DNA from: Sphaerisporangium krabiense
Lineage (GTDB): Bacteria > Actinomycetota > Actinomycetes > Streptosporangiales > Streptosporangiaceae
Length of the DNA: 64,000 nt
Assembly (NCBI RefSeq): GCF_014200435.1
Contig: NZ_JACHBR010000001.1
Coordinates: forward strand, 4,840,001-4,904,000
Reading direction: 5' to 3'
The translations under genes and the position numbers were made by a program. Under the pieces are notes generated by a model. The model saw only the letters and a list, made by a program, of their open reading frames with translations. It ran no database searches and had not been told where the DNA came from. Shown in pieces: positions 5,692 through 64,000 of this stretch; within the stretch, counting starts at the first letter, position 1; each line of letters begins with the position of its first letter.

Positions 5692-6795
5692 TCAGGCCAG
5701 GAGGGCGGCGAGGCGCCGGGGGTCCAGGCCGTGCGCGGTGACGCCGTCGGCGCCGGTCATGGTGTCGGCGGCGACCAGGACGTTGACGATGGCCTCCTCG
5801 ACGGCCTCGATGGTCGCCCAGAACAGCGGGTCGATGTACTCGTCGGCGAGGACCGTGACCGGGAACGTGCGCGGCGGGTGGCTGTCGATGGCGTTGGAGG
5901 GCAGGTTGCGGTTGTGCGTGGCGAAGCACAGGAAGCCGTCGCCGCTGCCGTTCTCCCCGGCCCCGCCGGTGCGGGCGACGCCGAGCGCGGCCCGCCGGGC
6001 GAGCCTGCGGCACTGGTGGGGGAGCAGCGGGGCGTCGGTGGCGACGATGCCGATGATGGAACCCGCCCCCTCGTGCGTGAGGGGGCGGGGCCGGGGAACG
6101 TCGGCCATGGCGCGTCCGACGGGCACGCCGTTGACGGTGAGGCGGTCGCGCATGCCGTGGTTGGCCTGGACCAGCACGCCGACGGTGTAGCCGCCGTCCG
6201 CCTCGGGCAGGACGCGCGAGGCGGTGCCGATGCCGCCCTTGAAGCCGTGGCAGATCATGCCGGTGCCGCCGCCGACCGCGCCCTCGGCGACCGGGCCGCC
6301 GCTCGCCGCGGCGTAGGCGGCCCTGACGTGCTCAGGCCTGACGTGCTGCCCGTCGATGTCGTTGAGCCTGCCGTCCCAGGTCTCGCCCACGACGGGCAGG
6401 GACCACGCCTGGCGTCCCCTGCCGAGGGAGGAGACCTCGAGTTCGACGATGGTGTCGCGGACGACGCCCACGGACGCGGTGTTGGTGAGCCCGATCGGCG
6501 AGCCGAGCAGGCCGAACTCGTCGAGGTAGGCCATGCCGGTGATCTCGCCGTTGCCGTTCAGCCAGTGGTAGCCCGCGTACACGGGCTCGTCGAAGGCCGA
6601 CCCCCCGTGCGGAAGGATCATCGTGACGCCGGTGCGCACCGGGCCCTGGCCGCGCACGCGCGGCCCGTCGCCGTGGATGAGGGTGGTGTGGCCGACCCTG
6701 ACGTCCGCGACGTCGGTGATCGCGTTGTACGGGCCGGGAGTGCCGGCGCCGATGACGATTCCGTGGTCACGTGCCCGCGTGGCGGTGGCGCTCAC
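5692..6795 (-). CDS. P1 family peptidase (DmpA-like, N-terminal nucleophile, S58)
   Basis: The 367-residue product belongs to the DmpA/BapA aminopeptidases, which mature by self-cleavage before a serine. The cleavage site is visible as GAG|SIIGIVATDAPLLPHQ with Ser246 as predicted nucleophile, nearly the position known for DmpA (Ser250). NTASVGVVRD, GGGTGMICHGFKGGIGTASR and SGDGFLCFATHN are further family signatures. The GTG start at 6795 overlaps the stop of the upstream PucR gene (GTGA) and has GGGAG four bases before it, so the two are translationally coupled. There is no signal peptide, so it acts in the cytoplasm. Family members cut N-terminal D- or beta-amino acids from small peptides and amides; its substrate here is unknown. 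Confidence 0.92.
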   Translation of the reverse strand: MSATATRARDHGIVIGAGTPGPYNAITDVADVRVGHTTLIHGDGPRVRGQGPVRTGVTMILPHGGSAFDEPVYAGYHWLNGNGEITGMAYLDEFGLLGSPIGLTNTASVGVVRDTIVELEVSSLGRGRQAWSLPVVGETWDGRLNDIDGQHVRPEHVRAAYAAASGGPVAEGAVGGGTGMICHGFKGGIGTASRVLPEADGGYTVGVLVQANHGMRDRLTVNGVPVGRAMADVPRPRPLTHEGAGSIIGIVATDAPLLPHQCRRLARRAALGVARTGGAGENGSGDGFLCFATHNRNLPSNAIDSHPPRTFPVTVLADEYIDPLFWATIEAVEEAIVNVLVAADTMTGADGVTAHGLDPRRLAALLA

Positions 6796-8402
6796 CGGGT
6801 CTCCCTTCTGAATGATTCCAGCGCCAGCAGGGCGACATGGAGCGACAAGCAGGAGTCGACGTCGTCGAGGTCGGTGTCGAGGATGCGTTCGAGGCGGCGG
6901 AGCCGGTCGTAGAAGGCCGGGCGCGACAGGTGGGCGCGCTGGGCGGCGACGGCCTTGTTGCGTCCGGCGTCGAGGTAGGTGCGCAGGATGCCGGTGAGGT
7001 CGCCGCCGCGGTGGGCGTCGTGGGCGAGCAGGGGGCCGAGCTCGCGCTCGGCGAAGGTCTGCAGCCGGGCGTCGTCGCGCAGGAGGTGGAGCAGGCCGCG
7101 CAGCCGCAGGTCGGGCAGGCGGTAGAAGGGGCGGCGGTCGGGCTGGCGCGCGGCGGCCTCGGCGACCTGCTCGGCCTCCAGGAAGCTGCGGCGGACGTCC
7201 CTGATCGACTCGACGACCGAGCCGGCGGCGAGGACGAAGGGCGTGGCGAACGCCGTGCGTAACCGCTCGGCCAGCGAGGTGAGCGCGGCCTCGGCGGGGG
7301 TGCGGGGCGGCAGGGGGAGCAGGACGCCGACGCGGTTCTGGTCCAGGGCGCCGACCAGGGCGGGCAGGCGGGCGTCTCTGCAGGCGGCGGCCGCCGCCTC
7401 GGCCAGCTCGCCGAGCTGGGCCTGGAGGTTGAGCGCGGTGTCGGCGGCGTCGGTGAGCCGCAGCACGACGCTGATGAGCTTCCTGCCGGTGAGCGGGACG
7501 CCCACCGCGCGGGCGCGGGCGGCGGCCTCGTCGGGGTCGGCGTAGGCGTGCGTGAGGATGCCGGTGATGATCGTGCCGTGCGCCTGGCGCTCCAGGCTTT
7601 CCTGGTGGCGTTCCAGCAGGCGGCCGAGGGCGAGGGTGGTGGCGGCGCGCTCGGCGAGGACGACGTCGCGGGGGCCGGGCGGCTCCTCGCAGATGATGAT
7701 GAGCCGCCCCCAGTCGTGGCCGCGCGCCCCGACCATGGTGACCAGCCAGCCGGAGGAGGGGTCGTAGGCGGTGCGCTCGTGGGGGCTGACGGCGCGGGAG
7801 CGGGCCTCCCAGTTGGCGAGCAGGACGCCGGTGTCGCGGCCGGCGGTCTCGCAGGCGAGCACCTGGTGGGCGAGGTTCTCCAGCAAGGCGGGCCGCGCGG
7901 ACAGGCGCGAGACCTGGGCGAGGACCTCGGCCGGCGAGGCGCCCTCGACCGACAGCTCGGTGAACACCTCGTGCAGTTGCTCGGAGGCGCGCAGCTCCTC
8001 GAGCTGGATGTCGATGATGCGGGCGTGCACCGACTCGGTGATCTGGACGAACGGGGTCTCGCGGGTGAGCGTGACGAGCGGGAGGCCGTGCAGCTCGGCC
8101 GACTCGACGACCGCGCGGGGCAGCTCGCGGATGAACCTGCGGCCGAGTTCGACGATGAGGCCGGAGGCGCCGACGGCGGCGAGGTCGGCGATGTAGTCGG
8201 CCAGCTTGTCGGGCTCCTCGGGCAGCGCGACCCCTGTGGTGAGGATCAGCTCCCCGCCGCGCAGGAGGTGGGCGATGTCGCTGACCTCGCCGACGTGCAC
8301 CCAGCGGACGCGGGTGTCCAACCGGTCGGCGCCGGCGACGACGCGCGGGCTGCCTCGGCGGACGGCGTCCAGCGCGAGAACGTCGGCCAGGGTCGGTAGC
8401 AT
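6792..8402 (-). CDS. PucR family transcriptional regulator
   Basis: The 536-residue protein has the full PucR layout: an N-terminal PucR sensory domain (residues 1-125, MLPTLADVLAL, GGELILTTG, GLPLVTLTRETPF), a central GGDEF-like region and a C-terminal helix-turn-helix (residues about 465-530, LRTYLDAGRNKAVAAQRAHL then RPAFYDRLRRLE). PucR proteins regulate purine, amine and amino-acid catabolism genes. Its stop overlaps the start of the P1 peptidase gene, making that peptidase the likeliest target. The start follows TACGCT by seven bases and has no ribosome binding site, so the transcript may be leaderless. GGACAT just before the start also recurs upstream of the aminotransferase gene at 11128. 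Confidence 0.93.
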   Translation of the reverse strand: MLPTLADVLALDAVRRGSPRVVAGADRLDTRVRWVHVGEVSDIAHLLRGGELILTTGVALPEEPDKLADYIADLAAVGASGLIVELGRRFIRELPRAVVESAELHGLPLVTLTRETPFVQITESVHARIIDIQLEELRASEQLHEVFTELSVEGASPAEVLAQVSRLSARPALLENLAHQVLACETAGRDTGVLLANWEARSRAVSPHERTAYDPSSGWLVTMVGARGHDWGRLIIICEEPPGPRDVVLAERAATTLALGRLLERHQESLERQAHGTIITGILTHAYADPDEAAARARAVGVPLTGRKLISVVLRLTDAADTALNLQAQLGELAEAAAAACRDARLPALVGALDQNRVGVLLPLPPRTPAEAALTSLAERLRTAFATPFVLAAGSVVESIRDVRRSFLEAEQVAEAAARQPDRRPFYRLPDLRLRGLLHLLRDDARLQTFAERELGPLLAHDAHRGGDLTGILRTYLDAGRNKAVAAQRAHLSRPAFYDRLRRLERILDTDLDDVDSCLSLHVALLALESFRRETR

Positions 8403-55624: not shown

Positions 55625-57301
55625 ATGAAGCGCAGCCCTGAGCTACTGCGTCTGGCCGATTCGGTCCTCCTCCCCGGGTTCGAAGGACGAACACCCCCGG
55701 ACTGGCTGCGGCGCCGACTCGGCGAAGGGCTGTCGGGCGTGGTGCTGTTCTCCAGGAACATCGGGACGCCGTCCGAACTCGCCGAGCTGACCGCGGCCCT
55801 GCGCGCGGAGCGCCCCGAGGCCGTCATCGGCATCGACGAGGAGGCCGGGGACGTCACCCGGCTGGAGGCCAGCACCGGCAGTTCGCGCCCGGGCAACTAC
55901 GCCCTCGGCGTGGTCGACGACGTCGCCCTCACCGAGAAGGTCGCCTACGGCGTCGGCCTGGACCTCGCCGCCTCCGGCGTCAACGTCAACTTCGCCCCCG
56001 CGGCCGACGTGAACTCCAACCCGCGCAACCCCGTCATCGGCCTGCGCTCCTTCGGCGCCGATCCCGAACTCGTGGCGCGGCACACCGCCGCCTGGGTACG
56101 GGGGCTCCAGGCGGCGGGCGTCGCCGCCTGCGCCAAGCACTTCCCCGGACACGGGGACACCGCCGTCGACTCCCACCACGGCCTGCCGTCGGTCGGGGCG
56201 TCGCTCGAGCAGCTTCACAAGGTGGAGCTGCTCCCGTTCCGCGCCGCCATCGCCGAAGGCGTCCAGATGATCATGACGGGCCACCTGCTCGTCGACGCCT
56301 ACGACCCCGGCCTCCCCGCCACGCTCAGCCCGCGCATCCTCACCGGACTGCTCAGGGACGAGATGGGGTTCCAGGGCGTGACCATCACCGACGCCGTGGA
56401 GATGGCGGCGATCGTCGAGCGGTACGGCATCGGCGGCGGCAGCGTGCGCGCGGTCGCCGCGGGAGCCGACCTGATCTGTATCGGTGGCGAGCACGCGGAC
56501 GACGAGGTCGTCGTGACGATCCGCGAGGCGATCGCCGACGCCGTCGCCGAGGGCGCGCTGCCCGAGGAGAGGCTCGCCGAGGCCGCGCGCCGCGTCGAGG
56601 CCCTCACCACCTGGACCGGCTCCTTCCCCGGCCCGCGGCCGTCCGCCGCCCGGGAGACCCTGACGCTCGGCGCGCACCTGGACGGCCACGCGGCCGCCGC
56701 GATGGCGCTGGACGGGCACGGGGCCCCCGCTCCGGACCTGGACGGGCACGTGGGTCTGGACGGGCACGCCAGCGCCACGGCGCTGCTCGACGGGTCGTCC
56801 TCGGACGGGTACGACGACGGGCCCGGGCACGTGCCGCCGGGGCTGGACGCCGCGCGGCGGGCCATCCGCGTCGCCGGCGACCCCGGGTCCGCGCTGCCGC
56901 TTCCCGCCGCGCCGCACGTGGTGGAGCTGACGCCCCTCATGAGCATGGCGATCGACAAGCACATGCCGTGGGGCGTCGGCGAGCCGCTGGGCAAGCTGCT
57001 GCCCGGCACGACGGTGACCCGCGCCGGCGAGGAGGAGGCCGGGAGCCTGGACGAGGCCGTCCTGCGCTCGGCCGAGGACCGGCCGCTGGTGCTGGTGGTC
57101 CGCGACGCCCACCGCCACGCCTGGCAGATCGACGCGCTGACCCGGCTCCTGGCCGCGCGGCCGGACGCGATCGTGGTCGAGATGGGCCTGCCGGGGCGCA
57201 CCGACCTCGGCGCCGTCCACATCGCCACGCACGGCGCGGCCCGCGTCTGCGGCCAGGCCGCCGCCGAGGTGCTCACCGGCCTCCTGCCCGTCCCGTCCTG
57301 A
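55625..57301 (+). CDS. Glycoside hydrolase family 3 protein (beta-N-acetylhexosaminidase type)
   Basis: The 558-residue product has the GH3 N-terminal barrel: LSGVVLFSRNIGTPSELAEL, AVIGIDEEAGDVTRLE, NVNFAPAADVNSNPRNPVIG, KHFPGHGDTAVDSHHGLP (the flexible histidine loop of NagZ enzymes) and the nucleophile aspartate in VTITDAVEM. The C-terminal domain (residues about 420-558) is a GH3_C-like flavodoxin fold. Between them is an insert at residues about 352-400 with four LDGH repeats. No signal peptide is present, so it acts inside the cell, probably in peptidoglycan or amino-sugar recycling. A strong hairpin follows. Confidence 0.9.
   Translation: MKRSPELLRLADSVLLPGFEGRTPPDWLRRRLGEGLSGVVLFSRNIGTPSELAELTAALRAERPEAVIGIDEEAGDVTRLEASTGSSRPGNYALGVVDDVALTEKVAYGVGLDLAASGVNVNFAPAADVNSNPRNPVIGLRSFGADPELVARHTAAWVRGLQAAGVAACAKHFPGHGDTAVDSHHGLPSVGASLEQLHKVELLPFRAAIAEGVQMIMTGHLLVDAYDPGLPATLSPRILTGLLRDEMGFQGVTITDAVEMAAIVERYGIGGGSVRAVAAGADLICIGGEHADDEVVVTIREAIADAVAEGALPEERLAEAARRVEALTTWTGSFPGPRPSAARETLTLGAHLDGHAAAAMALDGHGAPAPDLDGHVGLDGHASATALLDGSSSDGYDDGPGHVPPGLDAARRAIRVAGDPGSALPLPAAPHVVELTPLMSMAIDKHMPWGVGEPLGKLLPGTTVTRAGEEEAGSLDEAVLRSAEDRPLVLVVRDAHRHAWQIDALTRLLAARPDAIVVEMGLPGRTDLGAVHIATHGAARVCGQAAAEVLTGLLPVPS
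56678..56767 (+). repeat. Four copies of a 12-base repeat inside the GH3 gene
   Basis: CTGGACGG(C/G)CAC occurs at 56678, 56708, 56738 and 56756, always in frame, coding LDGH. The copies are 30, 30 and 18 bases apart, and Asp/Gly-rich sequence continues to about 56830. It lies in the linker between the two GH3 domains and probably expanded by slippage. Confidence 0.85.
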
Positions 57302-58202: not shown

Positions 58203-59117
58203 ATGAGCGGTATCTGTGCGGGACGCGTCGTCGTGGTGACCGGTGCCGGGCGCGGCATCGGCAGGGAGCACGCCCTGGAGTTCGCCCGCCAGGGCGCCAA
58301 GGTCGTCGTGAACGACCTCGGGACCGACACCAGAGGCGGAGGACGCTCCAGCGCCCCGGCGCTCGCGGTGGTCGAGGAGATCCGCGACCACGGCGGGGAC
58401 GCGGTCGCCAACTGCGACGACGTGGCGGACTGGGAGGGCTCGGCGCGGCTCGTGAAGACGGCGGTCAGCGCCTTCGGCGGGCTGGACGTGCTGGTCGGCA
58501 ACGCCGGCTACCTGCGGGACCGCATGATCGTCTCGATGACCGAGCACGACTGGGACGACGTGATCCGCGTCCACCTGAAGGGGCACTTCCTGCCGCTGCG
58601 GCACGCCGCCGCGTACTGGCGGGAGCGTGCCAAGGCGGGGGAGGCGCGGGACGCCCGGGTCGTCACGACCACCTCCGGCGCCGGGCTGCTCGGCAGCGTC
58701 GGCCAGGCCAACTACGCCGCCGCCAAGGCCGGGATCGTCGCGCTGACGCACACGGCCGCCGCCGAGCTCGCCCGCTACGGCGTCACGGTCAACGCCGTCA
58801 CGCCCTCGGCGCGAACCCGCCTCACCGAGGAGGCGTTCGCCTCCATGGTGGCCCCGCCGGAGTCCGGCTTCGACGTCATGGACCCGGCCAACGTGGCGCC
58901 CCTGGTGGTCTGGCTGGGCTCGGCCGAGTCCTCCGGCGTCACCGGGCGCGTCTTCGAGGTCGAGGGCGGCATGATCTCCATCGCCACGGGCTGGACCCAC
59001 GGCCCGGGCGTCGACAAGGGCTCCCGCTGGGAGCTGCACGAGATCGGCGAGGCGGTCGGCAAGCTGCTCGCCGAGGCCCCGGTCCCCGACCCGGTGTACG
59101 GCGTGGCACAGATCTGA
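58203..59117 (+). CDS. Short-chain dehydrogenase/reductase
   Basis: The 304-residue product has the classical SDR sites: VVTGAGRGIGREHALEFARQ (NAD(P) binding), NDLGTDTRGGG, the LVGNAGYLRDRM motif, catalytic Ser in TTTSGAGLLGSVGQ and YxxxK in NYAAAKAGI. The extended C-terminus (GWTHGPGVDKGSRWELHEIG) and NDLG motif resemble the SDRs encoded with fatty-acid and steroid catabolism genes in mycobacteria. It lies four kilobases from the KstR2-like repressor, but no KstR2 motif is visible upstream. The substrate is unknown. Confidence 0.92.
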   Translation: MSGICAGRVVVVTGAGRGIGREHALEFARQGAKVVVNDLGTDTRGGGRSSAPALAVVEEIRDHGGDAVANCDDVADWEGSARLVKTAVSAFGGLDVLVGNAGYLRDRMIVSMTEHDWDDVIRVHLKGHFLPLRHAAAYWRERAKAGEARDARVVTTTSGAGLLGSVGQANYAAAKAGIVALTHTAAAELARYGVTVNAVTPSARTRLTEEAFASMVAPPESGFDVMDPANVAPLVVWLGSAESSGVTGRVFEVEGGMISIATGWTHGPGVDKGSRWELHEIGEAVGKLLAEAPVPDPVYGVAQI

Positions 59118-59133
59118 GGCCCGTCCGGCGACC

Positions 59134-59164
59134 TTGACCATACTTCGCGAGGCGATGTATGGTC
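59134..59164 (+). promoter_or_regulatory. Promoter-operator of the O-acetylation cassette (PadR box 1)
   Basis: A -35 TTGACC (59134-59139) and -10 TATGGT (59158-59163), 18 bases apart, are embedded in an inverted repeat with arms GACCATACTTC (59136-59146) and GATGTATGGTC (59154-59164). An ATG follows seven bases after the -10. The same arrangement, with a perfect repeat, stands before the padR gene at 61885, so PadR very likely controls both. Confidence 0.85.
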
Positions 59165-59170
59165 GCCGGC

Positions 59171-59227
59171 ATGCCCGACGACCCTTCACGGCGCGCGGAA
59201 CCGGCCGCGACCGGCCGCGAGGGCTGA
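59171..59227 (+). CDS. Putative 18-residue leader peptide before the MBOAT gene
   Basis: The frame MPDDPSRRAEPAATGREG begins exactly where the leaderless start is predicted, seven bases after the -10 hexamer, the same place as the padR start relative to its twin promoter. It ends 10 bases before the MBOAT start, in another frame. The MBOAT gene has only GAGGG about 15 bases upstream, so translation of this short frame may help start it. It could also simply be untranslated leader. Confidence 0.45.
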   Translation: MPDDPSRRAEPAATGREG

Positions 59228-59237
59228 GCGTCCGCCG

Positions 59238-60680
59238 ATGTCGTTCGCCTCCCCGCTGTTCCTCTGGTTCTTCATGCCCGTCACCCTCGTGACGTACTGG
59301 GCCACGCCCCGGCGTCTGCGCAACCATGTCGTGGCCGTGGCCAGCCTGGTCTTCTACGCCTGGGGCGCCGGGCCGTACGTGGCGCTGCTGGCGTCGGCGA
59401 TCCTGGTGAACTTCGCGGCGGGCATCGCGATCGACTCTCCGCGGGTCTCGGCGCGGGGCCGGACGGCCGTGCTCGTGGGGGCGGTCGCCTGGGACCTCGG
59501 CATCCTCGCCGTGTGGAAGTACGCGGGGTTCGCCGCCCGCCAGATCGACGCGTTGTCGACCGCGCTCGGCCTCGGGCACGGCCCGGTCGTGGACCTCGCC
59601 CTGCCGATCGGCATCTCCTTCTTCACCTTCCACCACATCTCCTACGTGGTGGACGTCCACCGGCGCAGCAGGCCCGCGCAGCGGGGCCTCGTCGGCTTCG
59701 TCACCTACATCACGATGTTCCCGCAGCTCGTCGCGGGCCCGGTCGTCCGCTACCACGAGATCTCCGCCCAGCTCGCCGACACCGCGCGCGACCGGTACGC
59801 CGACTTCGCCGCGGGCTTCCCCCGCTTCGCGCTCGGCCTGGCCAAGAAGGTGATCGTGGCGGACACCGTCGCCCCGATCGCCGACGCCGCGTTCGCCGTC
59901 CCCAGCGGGGAGATCGGCGCCGCGACCGCCTGGGTGGGGGCCCTGGCCTACACCGTGCAGATCTACTTCGACTTCTCCGGGTACTCCGACATGGCGGTCG
60001 GCCTGGGCATGATGTTCGGGTTCCGCCTGCCGGAGAACTTCGCCCGGCCGTACTCGGCCTGCTCCGTCACCGACTTCTGGAGGCGCTGGCACATCTCGCT
60101 GTCGCGCTGGTTCCGCGACTACGTCTACATCCCGCTCGGCGGCAACCGCCGCGGCACGGCGGTCACGTACCGCAACCTGCTGGTCATCTTCGTGCTGTGC
60201 GGCTTCTGGCACGGCGCCGGCTGGACGTTCCTGTGCTGGGGCCTGTACCACGGCGGCCTGCTCGTCGCCGAGCGGGCGCTCGGCTGGGACAGGCCGCCCG
60301 GCGGCGTCCCGGCCCTGGTCCTGCGCCGCGCCGCGACCTTCCTGCTGGTCGTCGCCGGATGGGTCCTGTTCAGGTCCGCCGACCTGTCACAGGCGGCCGG
60401 CATGCTCGGGGCCATGGCCGGGGCGCGCGGCGGCGGGCTCGACGAGTTCGTGCTGTTCTCCCTCGACCACCGGCGGACGGCCGTCCTCGTCCTCGCGCTC
60501 ACCGTGGTGCTGCTGCCCGCCTCCCAGAGCCTCGGACGGCTGCTGGAGCGGGGACGCGACGGCGCGGCGCGGTGGGCCGTCACGGCGGCGCGCGTGGCGG
60601 TGACCTGGGTCGCGGCCCCGTACGCGGGCGTGCTCGTCGCCGCGGGCACCTTCAGCCCGTTCCTCTACTACCAGTTCTGA
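59238..60680 (+). CDS. MBOAT family O-acyltransferase (AlgI-like)
   Basis: The 480-residue protein has about ten to twelve membrane helices and the AlgI/PatA/DltB signature: LPIGISFFTFHHISYVVDVH, MFPQLVAGPVVRYHEI, TVQIYFDFSGYSDMAVGLGM, DFWRRWHISLSRWFRDYVYI and the invariant His325 in VLCGFWHGAGWTF. Such proteins pass an acetyl group from the cytoplasm across the membrane to surface polysaccharide, peptidoglycan or teichoic acid. The next gene, two bases on, codes for an AlgJ/AlgX-like partner, so the two form a complete O-acetylation module. It is expressed from the PadR-type promoter-operator at 59134. Confidence 0.95.
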   Translation: MSFASPLFLWFFMPVTLVTYWATPRRLRNHVVAVASLVFYAWGAGPYVALLASAILVNFAAGIAIDSPRVSARGRTAVLVGAVAWDLGILAVWKYAGFAARQIDALSTALGLGHGPVVDLALPIGISFFTFHHISYVVDVHRRSRPAQRGLVGFVTYITMFPQLVAGPVVRYHEISAQLADTARDRYADFAAGFPRFALGLAKKVIVADTVAPIADAAFAVPSGEIGAATAWVGALAYTVQIYFDFSGYSDMAVGLGMMFGFRLPENFARPYSACSVTDFWRRWHISLSRWFRDYVYIPLGGNRRGTAVTYRNLLVIFVLCGFWHGAGWTFLCWGLYHGGLLVAERALGWDRPPGGVPALVLRRAATFLLVVAGWVLFRSADLSQAAGMLGAMAGARGGGLDEFVLFSLDHRRTAVLVLALTVVLLPASQSLGRLLERGRDGAARWAVTAARVAVTWVAAPYAGVLVAAGTFSPFLYYQF

Positions 60681-60682
60681 CC

Positions 60683-61888
60683 ATGGATACCGCCACTCTC
60701 ACGAGGACCCCAGAAAAGGCTTCCCGACGGCGCCGCCGCGTCGCCGCCCTCGCCGCGTTCGTCTTCTTCTTCGGCCCCGCGGTGGCGTTCGCCGCAGGGG
60801 ACAGGGCCGGCGAGATCGAGAACCGCCAGCTGGCCGCCTTCCCGGCGCTGTCGCGGCGGTTCGCGGCAGGCTTCGAGGCATGGGCCGTGGACCACCTGCC
60901 CTTGCGCGGAGAGGCCGTGCGGGCCCACGCCCTGCTGTCGGAAGGGCTCTTCGGCGAGCAGCCCTCGTACGCGACCGCCGGGCCGCGCGCCTACCCCCGG
61001 GTCATCGAGGGACGCGACGGCTGGCTGTACTTCGGCGACGACGTGGCCGAGGCGTGCCGGCCCGCCGGGACGACGGCCGGGATCCTGGACCGCGTCCGCA
61101 GGCTGGGCGAGATCGTGCGAAGGTCCGGCCGGAGGTTCGTGTTCACCGTCGCGCCGGACAAGACCACCGTCTCGCCGGACAAGCTGCCGGACCGGTTCCT
61201 CGGCGAGGGCTGCCTGCGCGGGCGCAAGAAGGAGTTCTGGGCCGCGCTGGACGCCGCCCGCCCGCCCGGGTACCTCGACCTGCGCGCCCCGCTGCTGCGG
61301 CTGCAGCGCGACACGGGCGAGCCGGCCTACTTCCGCACCGACAGCCACTGGAGCGAGCGCTCCGCCGCCCTGTACGGCGAGGAACTGGCGCGCGTCCTGC
61401 GGCCCGGCCTGAGCGAGGACACGCGGCTCACCTTCCTCGGCCGTTCGCCGCGCGAGGGCGACCTCGGCAGGCTGCTCGGCGCCCCCCGCCAGGAGGACGC
61501 CGCCCGCTGGCGGCTGGACCGGGACGGGGTGCGCCGCGTCGCGCAGGACGACCGGGACGCGCCGCTCGCCTTCCGCGTGACCAACGCCTCCGCCCGCGCC
61601 GCGCTGTTCCGGCCGCGGACCCTGCTCATCGGCGACTCCTTCACCCGGGAGTCCACGCCGTGGATCACCCCGTACTTCGCGGACCTCACCGTGCTGCGCA
61701 GCGACGCCCCGGCCAGAGCCGGTCCCGAGCGGGTCGCCGGGTACGTGAGGGACGCCGAGGTGGTGGTGTTCGAGATGGTCGAGCGCTACTGGGCGGGCGG
61801 CCACGGGGAGACGCTGACCGACGAGACGCTCGCCGCGGTGGAGAAGGCCCTGGAGGCGGCACCGCGGCGCGCGGGCGATCCTGGTTGA
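60683..61888 (+). CDS. AlgJ/AlgX-like O-acetyltransferase, SGNH fold
   Basis: The 401-residue product has a basic N-terminus and one membrane anchor (ALAAFVFFFGPAVAFAAG), then an exported domain. WLYFGDD, FTVAPDKTTVSPDKLP, the catalytic pair in FRTDSHWSERSA (Asp220, His222) and the serine in LLIGDSFTRES (Ser319) match the AlgJ/AlgX acetyltransferase active site. It should take the acetyl group from the MBOAT partner and place it on a glycan outside the membrane. Its stop codon lies inside the -35 element of the padR promoter, showing how tightly the two units are packed. The glycan target is unknown. Confidence 0.92.
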   Translation: MDTATLTRTPEKASRRRRRVAALAAFVFFFGPAVAFAAGDRAGEIENRQLAAFPALSRRFAAGFEAWAVDHLPLRGEAVRAHALLSEGLFGEQPSYATAGPRAYPRVIEGRDGWLYFGDDVAEACRPAGTTAGILDRVRRLGEIVRRSGRRFVFTVAPDKTTVSPDKLPDRFLGEGCLRGRKKEFWAALDAARPPGYLDLRAPLLRLQRDTGEPAYFRTDSHWSERSAALYGEELARVLRPGLSEDTRLTFLGRSPREGDLGRLLGAPRQEDAARWRLDRDGVRRVAQDDRDAPLAFRVTNASARAALFRPRTLLIGDSFTRESTPWITPYFADLTVLRSDAPARAGPERVAGYVRDAEVVVFEMVERYWAGGHGETLTDETLAAVEKALEAAPRRAGDPG

Positions 61889-61915
61889 CCATACTTCTGA
61901 CCTCGAAGTATGGTC
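61885..61915 (+). promoter_or_regulatory. padR promoter-operator (PadR box 2)
   Basis: A -35 TTGACC (61885-61890) and -10 TATGGT (61909-61914), 18 bases apart, lie within a perfect inverted repeat: GACCATACTTC (61887-61897) and GAAGTATGGTC (61905-61915) around a seven-base spacer. The padR start follows seven bases after the -10. It is the twin of the site at 59134 and indicates autoregulation. Confidence 0.88.
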
Positions 61916-61921
61916 TCGGCC

Positions 61922-62257
61922 ATGGCCACCGGATCCTCATCGGTGAGCGAGCCGACGTACTTCATCCTCGCCGCCCTCCTCGACGGTCCCCTGCACGGCC
62001 ACGGCATCATCAAGCGCGTCCTGGACCTGTCCGAGGGCCGCATCAGGCTTCCCGTCGGCACCCTCTACGGCGCCCTCGACCGGCTGGCCACGCACGGCCT
62101 GATCGTCCTGGACCACGAGGAGGTCGTGGACGGCCGCCCCCGGCGCTACTACCGCCTCACCGAGCACGGCGACGGCGTGGTCACCGCCGAGGCCCGCCGC
62201 ATGCAGAAGGCCGCCGCGATCGTCACCGGCCGGGCCCCCGGGACGGCGCCGGCGTGA
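61922..62257 (+). CDS. PadR family transcriptional regulator
   Basis: The 111-residue protein is a short PadR winged-helix repressor: TYFILAALLDGPLHGHGIIK, RVLDLSEGRIRLPVGTLYGA, LDRLATHGLIVLDHEEVVDG and RPRRYYRLTEHGDGVV. ATG at 61922 is chosen because the ATG 12 bases upstream lies in the -10 element. The gene is leaderless and probably represses itself through the palindrome over its promoter, and the O-acetylation cassette through the twin site. Its stop overlaps the start of the next gene (GTGA). Confidence 0.94.
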   Translation: MATGSSSVSEPTYFILAALLDGPLHGHGIIKRVLDLSEGRIRLPVGTLYGALDRLATHGLIVLDHEEVVDGRPRRYYRLTEHGDGVVTAEARRMQKAAAIVTGRAPGTAPA

Positions 62258-63207
62258 CGCCCGCCGACGACGCCCGCCCGGGCGGGGCGGGCAACGCCGT
62301 GACCCCTCTGGAGCGCCGGTACCGCCGGCTGCTGCGCGCCTATCCGCCGGGGCACCGGGCCGGCCACGGCGAGGAGATGATCGCGACGCTGCTCGTCGCC
62401 GAGGCCGGCCGTCGCGTGCCCTCGTGGCGCGAGGCGCGGGCCCTGGTCGCGGGGGGCCTCCGGGCGCGCGCCCTCGACGCGGGGCGCGTTCCCGCCCTGG
62501 GGGACGGCGCGCACCTCGGGGTCACGGCGCTGGCGGCGGTGAACCTGGGCGTCCTGCTGCCGTACGCGGGATCGGTCCCGGTGTGGACGGCGCTGGCGGC
62601 GGCGGCGCTGCTGGCCGTGACCCGGGGCCGGATCGGCGCGGCGCTCCTTCTGGTGGCGCTGGTCGGCGGCAAGGTGGCCGCCGTGGCGCTCGGCCGTCCC
62701 TGGCTGGACGAGACGCTGCTGCCGGTCTTCCCCGACGCGCCGTGGCGTCTGCCCGCGCTGTACTCCACCGGAGGGCCGGTCGCGCCCGTCGCCGCCTACG
62801 CGCTCGCCTTCCTCGGGCTCCTGGCGCTGGCCGCGCGGCGCGTCCCGGTCCGGACGAGGACGTGGCGATGGTGGCTCGTGGCGCCGCTGGTGGCGGGCGC
62901 GGACCCCTCCTCGTGGCTCTCCGTGCAGCCGGGATCGGCGCGCGAGATGGGCCGGGTCGCCTTGGAGGTCGCGCTCCTGTGCCTGGCGGTGTGGGCGGGC
63001 CGCGTCGCGGCCGATCCGCGCTGGGCCGTCGCCGGCGCGCTCGCCGTGACGCCGGTCATCGTCGCCTGCGTGGAGAACACCCTGGCGGGCGGGTACGGGT
63101 ACGTCCTCTACGGCCGTCAGGAGCTGTCCCACCTGGGCGTGCTCGTGCTGCTGGTCGTCGCCGCGGGCGCGGCGCCGCTGCGCGCCCGGCGGCGCGTGCT
63201 GCTGTGA
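62254..63207 (+). CDS. PadR-associated integral membrane protein
   Basis: The 317-residue product has a cytoplasmic N-terminus with TPLERRYRRLLRAYPPGHRA and GHGEEMIATLL, a motif often seen in membrane proteins encoded after PadR genes. Seven or eight hydrophobic helices follow from residue about 85 onward. GTG at 62254 overlaps the padR stop, so the two are translationally coupled; its own stop overlaps the start of the next gene in the same way. No enzymatic motif is visible. A sensor or anti-regulator acting with PadR is an inference from the coupling. Confidence 0.82.
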   Translation: MTPADDARPGGAGNAVTPLERRYRRLLRAYPPGHRAGHGEEMIATLLVAEAGRRVPSWREARALVAGGLRARALDAGRVPALGDGAHLGVTALAAVNLGVLLPYAGSVPVWTALAAAALLAVTRGRIGAALLLVALVGGKVAAVALGRPWLDETLLPVFPDAPWRLPALYSTGGPVAPVAAYALAFLGLLALAARRVPVRTRTWRWWLVAPLVAGADPSSWLSVQPGSAREMGRVALEVALLCLAVWAGRVAADPRWAVAGALAVTPVIVACVENTLAGGYGYVLYGRQELSHLGVLVLLVVAAGAAPLRARRRVLL

Positions 63208-64000
63208 CGCGCCTCCCGGGCCGGGCGGCCCGATGGACGACCGCGCGCGCGGCCCTGCGCCGGGCAGGGCGCCTCGTGCCGGCGATGCTGGTCGTCCTGG
63301 CGGTGTGCGGCGCCCCCGGCGTCCGCGACGCGGGCGCCGCCCGGTACGGAGGCGGGCGGGACGCGCTCACGTGGCGGGAGGAGCTGCGCGCGGACTGCAT
63401 GAGGCGGCACGGGTTCCGGTACGTGCCCTCGCCGGGCAGGCACGTCAACCCCGTCCGCCGGGACACCCCGGAGGCGCGGGCCCGCGACATGGGGGAGTAC
63501 CCGGCGATGCGCCGGTTCCGGGAGAAGTACGGATTCGGGATCTTCGCGCTCTACGCCTATCCCCGCGAGTTCGGGAACCCCATGGTCCCGGTCGGGGGGC
63601 CGCTGGAGCCGAACGTGAGGATCCGAATGGCGCTCTCGCCGACCCAGCGCCACGCCTACCAGGACGCCGACGACGCCTGTTACGCGGAGGCGGTCAAGGC
63701 GGTCACGGGCAAGGAGGTGACCTCGTCCTACGACCACATGACGCAGGCGGACGCGCGGATCAGGGACCTCGTCGCCACCGAGCTGGACACCGACCCGCGG
63801 CTCGCCCGGCTCGGCGCGCGGATGGCCGCGTGCCTGTGGCGCGAGGGCTACGCCGTGCCCTCCCCGACGCCCTCGGCGCTGGCCGCCCGGGGGCCGGACG
63901 CCTTCCACGCGGAGGAGGTGCGGCTCGGACGCCGGATGGTGGAGCCCGACGAGCGCGTCCCGGAGGCGGCCTACTACGCGCCGCCGCTGACCCCGCAGGA
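63204..64000 (+). CDS. Secreted protein of unknown function (3' end outside window)
   Basis: An open frame runs from GTG at 63204 to the window end, at least 265 residues, with strong G/C bias at third positions. The start overlaps the stop of the membrane-protein gene (GTGA), the third coupled junction in a row. The N-terminus has a basic region and a hydrophobic segment (LVPAMLVVLAVCGAPG) that acts as a signal peptide; the cysteine near residue 36 could be a lipobox but is not ideal. WREELRADCMRRHGFRYVPS and AACLWREGYAVPSP suggest two related cysteine-containing units. I do not recognise the family. Confidence 0.75.
   Translation, partial: MTRLPGRAARWTTARAALRRAGRLVPAMLVVLAVCGAPGVRDAGAARYGGGRDALTWREELRADCMRRHGFRYVPSPGRHVNPVRRDTPEARARDMGEYPAMRRFREKYGFGIFALYAYPREFGNPMVPVGGPLEPNVRIRMALSPTQRHAYQDADDACYAEAVKAVTGKEVTSSYDHMTQADARIRDLVATELDTDPRLARLGARMAACLWREGYAVPSPTPSALAARGPDAFHAEEVRLGRRMVEPDERVPEAAYYAPPLTPQ

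Follow-up and report, generated by a model that had tools for sequence, protein, structure and literature searches.

Closest described systems

The transcriptional regulators LmrR and PadR sense small molecules directly. Among the studied cases compared, the nearest to the locus described here are the PadR repressors LftR, LstR and LltR of Listeria, which, in the parts of Hauf et al. (2019, PMC6624303) drawn on here, are autorepressing regulators of membrane-protein operons. Common to both are a small PadR protein, its own operon as a main target, few targets, membrane-protein genes and a presumed envelope signal; in those same parts of the paper, however, the Listeria systems come without a glycan O-acetylation pair or a lipoprotein gene. 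A second point of reference is the HAAS–PadR dyad, proposed, in the sections of Ravi et al. (2024, PMC11237479) used here, as an alternative to two-component systems. As those sections describe it, the dyad joins padR to a membrane protein whose N-terminal part has three helices, and this layout recurs in our material, padR being accompanied by a membrane gene in 30/30 family and 7/7 distant loci, but neither Pfam nor a profile comparison shows any similarity of the membrane family to HAAS.

On the enzymatic side, AlgI–AlgJ/AlgX and PatA–PatB, as covered by the portions of PMC9487903 relevant here, combine an MBOAT with a separate SGNH protein. The locus has the same combination, and in its SGNH protein the histidine motif precedes the serine motif, as those portions give it for AlgJ/AlgX (PMC9487903). 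Unlike in the alginate systems, there is no alginate cluster in the window (the whole stretch of 64,000 nucleotides of Sphaerisporangium krabiense DNA that was analysed), and control is predicted to run through a PadR operator. The likeness to DltB–DltD is partial: the MBOAT aligns with DltB structures, but its partner is AlgX-like and the DltB model stays below its cut-off. Has glycan O-acetylation been seen among the outputs of PadR? Among the literature matches listed, none reports PadR control of O-acetylation.

The locus and its probable twin promoter-operators

Downstream of an SDR gene the elements follow in the order box 1, 18-codon ORF, MBOAT, SGNH, box 2, padR, membrane gene and secreted gene, as listed here by window position.

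58203-59117: SDR gene, upstream neighbour of promoter-operator 1 (P1)
59134-59164, + strand: P1; TTGACC at 59134-59139, 18 nt, TATGGT at 59158-59163; palindrome (box 1) at 59136-59164
59171-59227, + strand: 18-codon ORF between P1 and MBOAT; leaderless-type start; stop codon at 59225-59227
59238-60680, + strand: MBOAT O-acyltransferase of AlgI/PatA/DltB type; PF03062; FWHG at residue 323
60683-61888, + strand: AlgX/AlgJ-like SGNH protein; PF16822; hydrophobic segment 20-38; DSHW at 220, GDSF at 317
61885-61915, + strand: promoter-operator 2 (P2); TTGACC at 61885-61890, 18 nt, TATGGT at 61909-61914; palindrome (box 2) at 61887-61915
61922-62257, + strand: padR, 111 aa; PF03551, 61 bits; ATG 7 nt behind TATGGT
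62254-63207, + strand: membrane-protein gene; GTGA overlap with padR
63204-64000, on to about 64142, + strand: secreted four-cysteine protein gene; GTGA overlap with the membrane gene; runs out of the window

An earlier, sequence-only reading of this DNA had placed two 29-bp inverted repeats at 59136-59164 and 61887-61915, each holding a -35 and a -10 hexamer, and both are found exactly there. The pattern GACCATACTT-N12-TATGGTC occurs at exactly two places in the genome of 8,529,851 bases, where base composition would give 3e-5, and the reversed pattern used as a control has no match in the whole genome. Tolerating up to three mismatches adds two places, with three mismatches each. In a promoter scan of 58900-64000 the two boxes are the only promoter-like sites (shuffles mean 0.0). 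The same interval contains no terminator-like site (shuffles mean 0.6), so transcription from P1 could continue into padR. The SGNH stop codon, TGA at 61886-61888, lies within the -35 box of P2, and the claimed coupling of padR, membrane and secreted genes is borne out by GTGA overlaps at both junctions. A leaderless start 7 nt behind each box had also been read from the sequence; this holds for padR, with its ATG at 61922, but not for the MBOAT gene, which starts at 59238. The palindrome common to padR and the O-acetylation pair is probably the PadR operator.

Conservation of box 1 and the 18-codon ORF

What, then, starts behind box 1? The ATG at 59171, 7 nt downstream, is in another frame than MBOAT; it begins an 18-codon ORF whose stop lies 10 nt before the MBOAT ATG; the MBOAT start at 59238 aligns with the starts of its homologues. 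Box 1 was found in three of the 11 genomes of the genus (the window's genome, G191 and G108), and ORF length, stop and 10-nt gap are identical in all three. The stretch made up of TT, box 1 and the following 6 nt is identical at 37/37 positions in both G191 and G108. Between the window and G108 the upstream region keeps 22/58 positions, the ORF 41/57 and the first 150 nt of MBOAT 123/150. Conservation of the box next to MBOAT in relatives, on which the sequence-only reading depended, is thus perfect in two relatives despite diverged flanks, within the genus. Outside these three genomes the best DNA match to box 1 is a padR promoter (G104:C23, 93 percent over 43 nt).

A conserved leader peptide was considered for the ORF and rejected: G000 and G108 differ at codon positions 1/2/3 by 4/7/5 changes (41/57 identity), and 16 changes free of third-position bias argue against such a peptide. 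From sequence, the ORF is better explained as serving re-initiation, or as a relic, than as coding for a functional peptide. The ORF is weakly similar to lipoprotein starts, its score being reached by 18 of 300 shuffles for G000 and 32 of 300 for G108.

The O-acetylation pair

The MBOAT protein matches PF03062 with 115.3 bits, aligns with the DltB structure 6bug at 5.5e-27 and carries the histidine motif FWHG at residue 323. On the NCBIfam DltB model it scores 161.1 bits against a cut-off of 375, which places it outside Dlt membership. Its partner matches PF16822 (ALGX/SGNH) with 79.9 bits and, weakly, AlgJ 4o8v (E 9.7e-4), and it has the DxHW and GDS motifs and the hydrophobic segment (20-38) of an AlgX/AlgJ-type SGNH protein. 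In six-frame translations CG[FL]WHGA, DSHW and GDSFT are present in 22/22 related loci. The pair had been called a complete O-acetylation module and, judged by its motifs, the MBOAT and the AlgX/AlgJ-like SGNH protein do appear intact. In G108 the SGNH gene lies in two overlapping frames (L045, about 6595-7742), through sequencing error or decay.

Of 297 family genomes, 26 have an SGNH homologue at E<=1e-15, three of them in the boxed arrangement. Of the 23 others, 20 were examined (G087, G109 and G201 were left out). MBOAT lies directly upstream of SGNH in all 20, two of which belong to the same genus (G031, G129); on both strands of the surrounding 10-14 kb none has the box, the best sites carrying 5-7 mismatches of 17, and none has a padR homologue at 1e-5 within the same distance. 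The proposal that the five genes form a general cassette is therefore not supported, the order being shared by three genomes while all 20 other pairs examined are without box and padR. Of the proposed PadR control of O-acetylation there remains the probable operator common to padR and the pair. By eye, another palindrome, about GGCATAACC-N-GGTTATGCC, is visible upstream of the unboxed MBOAT gene in L130, L132, L135 and L137-L142, and in L130 and L135 a gene for an OmpR-type response regulator precedes MBOAT on the opposite strand. The pairs with the other palindrome may be under a different regulator.

padR and its box across relatives

PadR has the winged-helix domain of its family (PF03551, 61 bits, cut-off 27) and matches 35 distinct PadR-type PDB sequences. 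Homologues at E<=1e-15 are found in 192/297 family genomes. In the window and in all 30 best family loci the palindrome stands at padR's own promoter: 16 of the 30 boxes have no mismatch in the 17 fixed bases, three have one, four have two, five have four and two have five. The padR start lies exactly 7 nt behind TATGGT in 24 of these loci and 6-10 nt behind it in the other six. As a control, eight of the genome's 21 other PadR-family places were tried; five aligned, with 8-10 mismatches, and three gave no match.

Counted by hand over the 297 family genomes, the two-strand box (<=2 mismatches) is present in 52 of the 99 genomes that have a PadR at E<=1e-30 and in none of the 198 others (Fisher p 1e-30). 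The remaining 47 genomes with a close PadR are without it, so operators drift or differ. One-strand matches alone were seen in 10 further genomes, of which seven do not belong to the 99; the reversed pattern gave one-strand matches in 18 genomes and both-strand matches in none. A scan of the GTDB contig set for the box with a near ATG returned 19 exact sites, 13 at padR and six at a lipoprotein gene; 18 stand under Streptosporangiaceae genus names and one under '[Actinomadura] parvosata'.

Is self-repression then the rule? A second padR clade argues against this. Among 32 of its loci, sampled together with other box sites, 26 lack the box in front of padR (6-9 mismatches), which speaks against self-repression as a general rule. 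A shorter core, CGTTNAACGGA, precedes padR in 19 of these 26 loci and is absent in seven. Boxes of second-clade loci lie mostly at the lipoprotein promoter; the window's PadR groups with the first clade. In distant padR–membrane dyads (L162, L163, L164), ATATATCG-type palindromes were noticed by eye near the padR start, and these could possibly be another self-operator.

The membrane and secreted partners

Which genes, then, belong with padR? Within 1.5 kb of the 30 best padR loci there is a membrane gene in 30/30 and a secreted or lipoprotein gene in 25/30, while MBOAT-SGNH is present in three, all of the window's genus, and absent in 27. Since 27/30 padR loci and 20/20 MBOAT-SGNH pairs stand apart from each other, the membrane and secreted proteins belong to PadR rather than to acetylation. 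Searched for across the phylum, with few candidates scored per genome, the membrane family had matches in at least seven of 295 other genomes. In all seven of these distant loci padR immediately precedes the membrane gene, with no lipoprotein gene in the flank, so padR and the membrane gene look like the old core. By sequence, the ancestral unit looks like padR plus the membrane gene, mostly with a lipoprotein gene, the box sitting on leaderless padR or lipoprotein promoters.

Neither the membrane protein nor the secreted protein has a Pfam or NCBIfam match. The former consists of a three-helix N-terminal part followed by 6-8 hydrophobic helices; in the predicted structure (mean pLDDT 78.1) the N-terminal helices would span 18-29, 32-49 and 58-76. 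Fold comparison with the PDB gave best E-values of 1.4 for this model and 0.4 for the lipoprotein model (mean pLDDT 87.1), so no function was inferred from fold, and in a profile search of PDB sequences the membrane family reached a best E of 0.11 and the lipoprotein family had no match up to 5. An identity with HAAS was rejected: 0/12 members of the membrane family match HAAS in Pfam, and hhalign gave a probability of 1 percent. The sole PF22564 match of this genome lies elsewhere, not in the membrane protein. Most homologues of the secreted protein have a lipoprotein-type N-terminus; in the alignment, the exported protein of two genomes (window 63204-64000; L087 4122-5078) is without a clear lipoprotein motif.

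A model for the locus and its alternatives

The reading we hold to be rather likely is one of PadR autorepression, relieved through the coupled membrane protein, with an O-acetylation operon gained by promoter capture. PadR would bind the 29-bp palindrome covering the -35 and -10 of both promoters, and would thereby repress its own operon of padR, membrane protein and exported four-cysteine protein. In this Sphaerisporangium lineage it would also repress the MBOAT-SGNH operon for surface O-acetylation. The padR-linked membrane protein is the likely envelope sensor that would relieve PadR, upon which the exported protein would be made and a cell-surface glycan acetylated, with acetyl as the presumed group and a glycan as its presumed target. 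The acetylation pair would have captured a complete promoter-operator along with the start codon belonging to it, and this start would survive as the 18-codon ORF. Capture by MBOAT is seen in three related genomes and so counts as one event. The sequences suggest that the sugar-decorating genes received the box recently from an older envelope-signalling module.

How do other explanations fare? PadR might sense a small molecule directly, the membrane protein being merely a regulated effector, for instance a transporter. We regard this as a serious possibility, if somewhat short of an even chance: the 111-aa PadR does match those 35 PadR-type PDB sequences, and in the parts of the Listeria study used here PadR repressors have membrane proteins as their targets and LftR responds to the antibiotic aurantimycin (PMC6624303). 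In the distant loci, however, the membrane family stands directly behind padR in 7/7 cases while other targets change, and such constant pairing favours a regulatory partner. That the repeat belongs to another regulator, with padR a mere neighbour, is unlikely; PadR binding is a prediction here and 47/99 close-PadR genomes are without the two-strand box, but in each of the 30 best loci the box stands where padR itself begins, and its two-strand form is in 0/198 genomes that have no close PadR.

Quite improbable is the earlier reading, that the five genes form a conserved cassette devoted to O-acetylation and that the membrane and secreted proteins have their role in it: one gene order does recur in three genomes, but MBOAT-SGNH is missing from the 1.5-kb flank of 27/30 padR loci and the 20 other pairs examined have neither padR nor box. 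Most improbable, in our view, is that box 1 and its ORF are what a recent insertion left behind, neutral and with no working operator. The restriction to three genomes and the unconserved ORF peptide would agree with this, but G108 has kept the box whole (37/37 nt, against 22/58 upstream and 41/57 in the ORF). The preferred reading, autorepression with captured acetylation genes, concerns a real, well-kept regulatory architecture, in which a known kind of repressor has recently gained a new output in one lineage.

Of more interest is the wider module, whose exported targets change. Tentatively, and with rather less confidence than for the locus itself, we propose that an undescribed PadR–membrane-protein dyad, non-HAAS by sequence, governs an envelope response throughout Streptosporangiaceae, and that its leaderless promoter-operator is a portable unit, four-cysteine lipoproteins, subtilases and the O-acetylation operon having joined via operator and start codon, the trace being either a short ORF or an N-terminus of foreign origin. 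If true, surface-glycan O-acetylation joins the outputs controlled by PadR repressors, and the regulon would be small and well bounded, its gain of targets readable from DNA lineage by lineage. For actinomycetes the dyad would offer a candidate route of envelope signalling, and a start codon travelling with its operator would suggest a concrete route of bacterial regulon growth.

Other genes behind the box

What else lies behind the box? Of 30 box loci (L046-L075), 18 have a lipoprotein gene behind the box, five have padR and two a subtilase (PF00082), and five match none of these classes (L046, L049, L050, L061, L070). About 180 nt downstream of the box in L070 a lipoprotein-like ORF begins. 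L061 has, at 1501-1529 (G003:C424:29161-29189), a mismatch-free palindromic box in one orientation with no leaderless gene behind it. Twenty further stretches, hand-picked from the site list and partly from genomes already sampled, have a lipoprotein gene in 13 cases, a subtilase in two and padR in one; the other four (L172, L174, L175, L177) fall in none of the three classes.

Secreted subtilase (S8) genes follow the box in L066, L067, L168 and L176, and none of these four has a padR homologue in the fetched 3-4 kb; the sequences suggest that boxed subtilases are regulated in trans. When subtilase starts were compared with lipoprotein starts, 0 of 300 shuffles were as similar for L176, 1 for L066, 2 for L067 and 99 for L168. 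The L176 subtilase opens with MPKRSS, as lipoproteins do, and here the promoter was likely captured along with the first codons. In the window itself, the ORF at 55625-57301, which we take to resemble a beta-N-acetylhexosaminidase, shows in translation a run of LDGH-type repeats in mid-protein.
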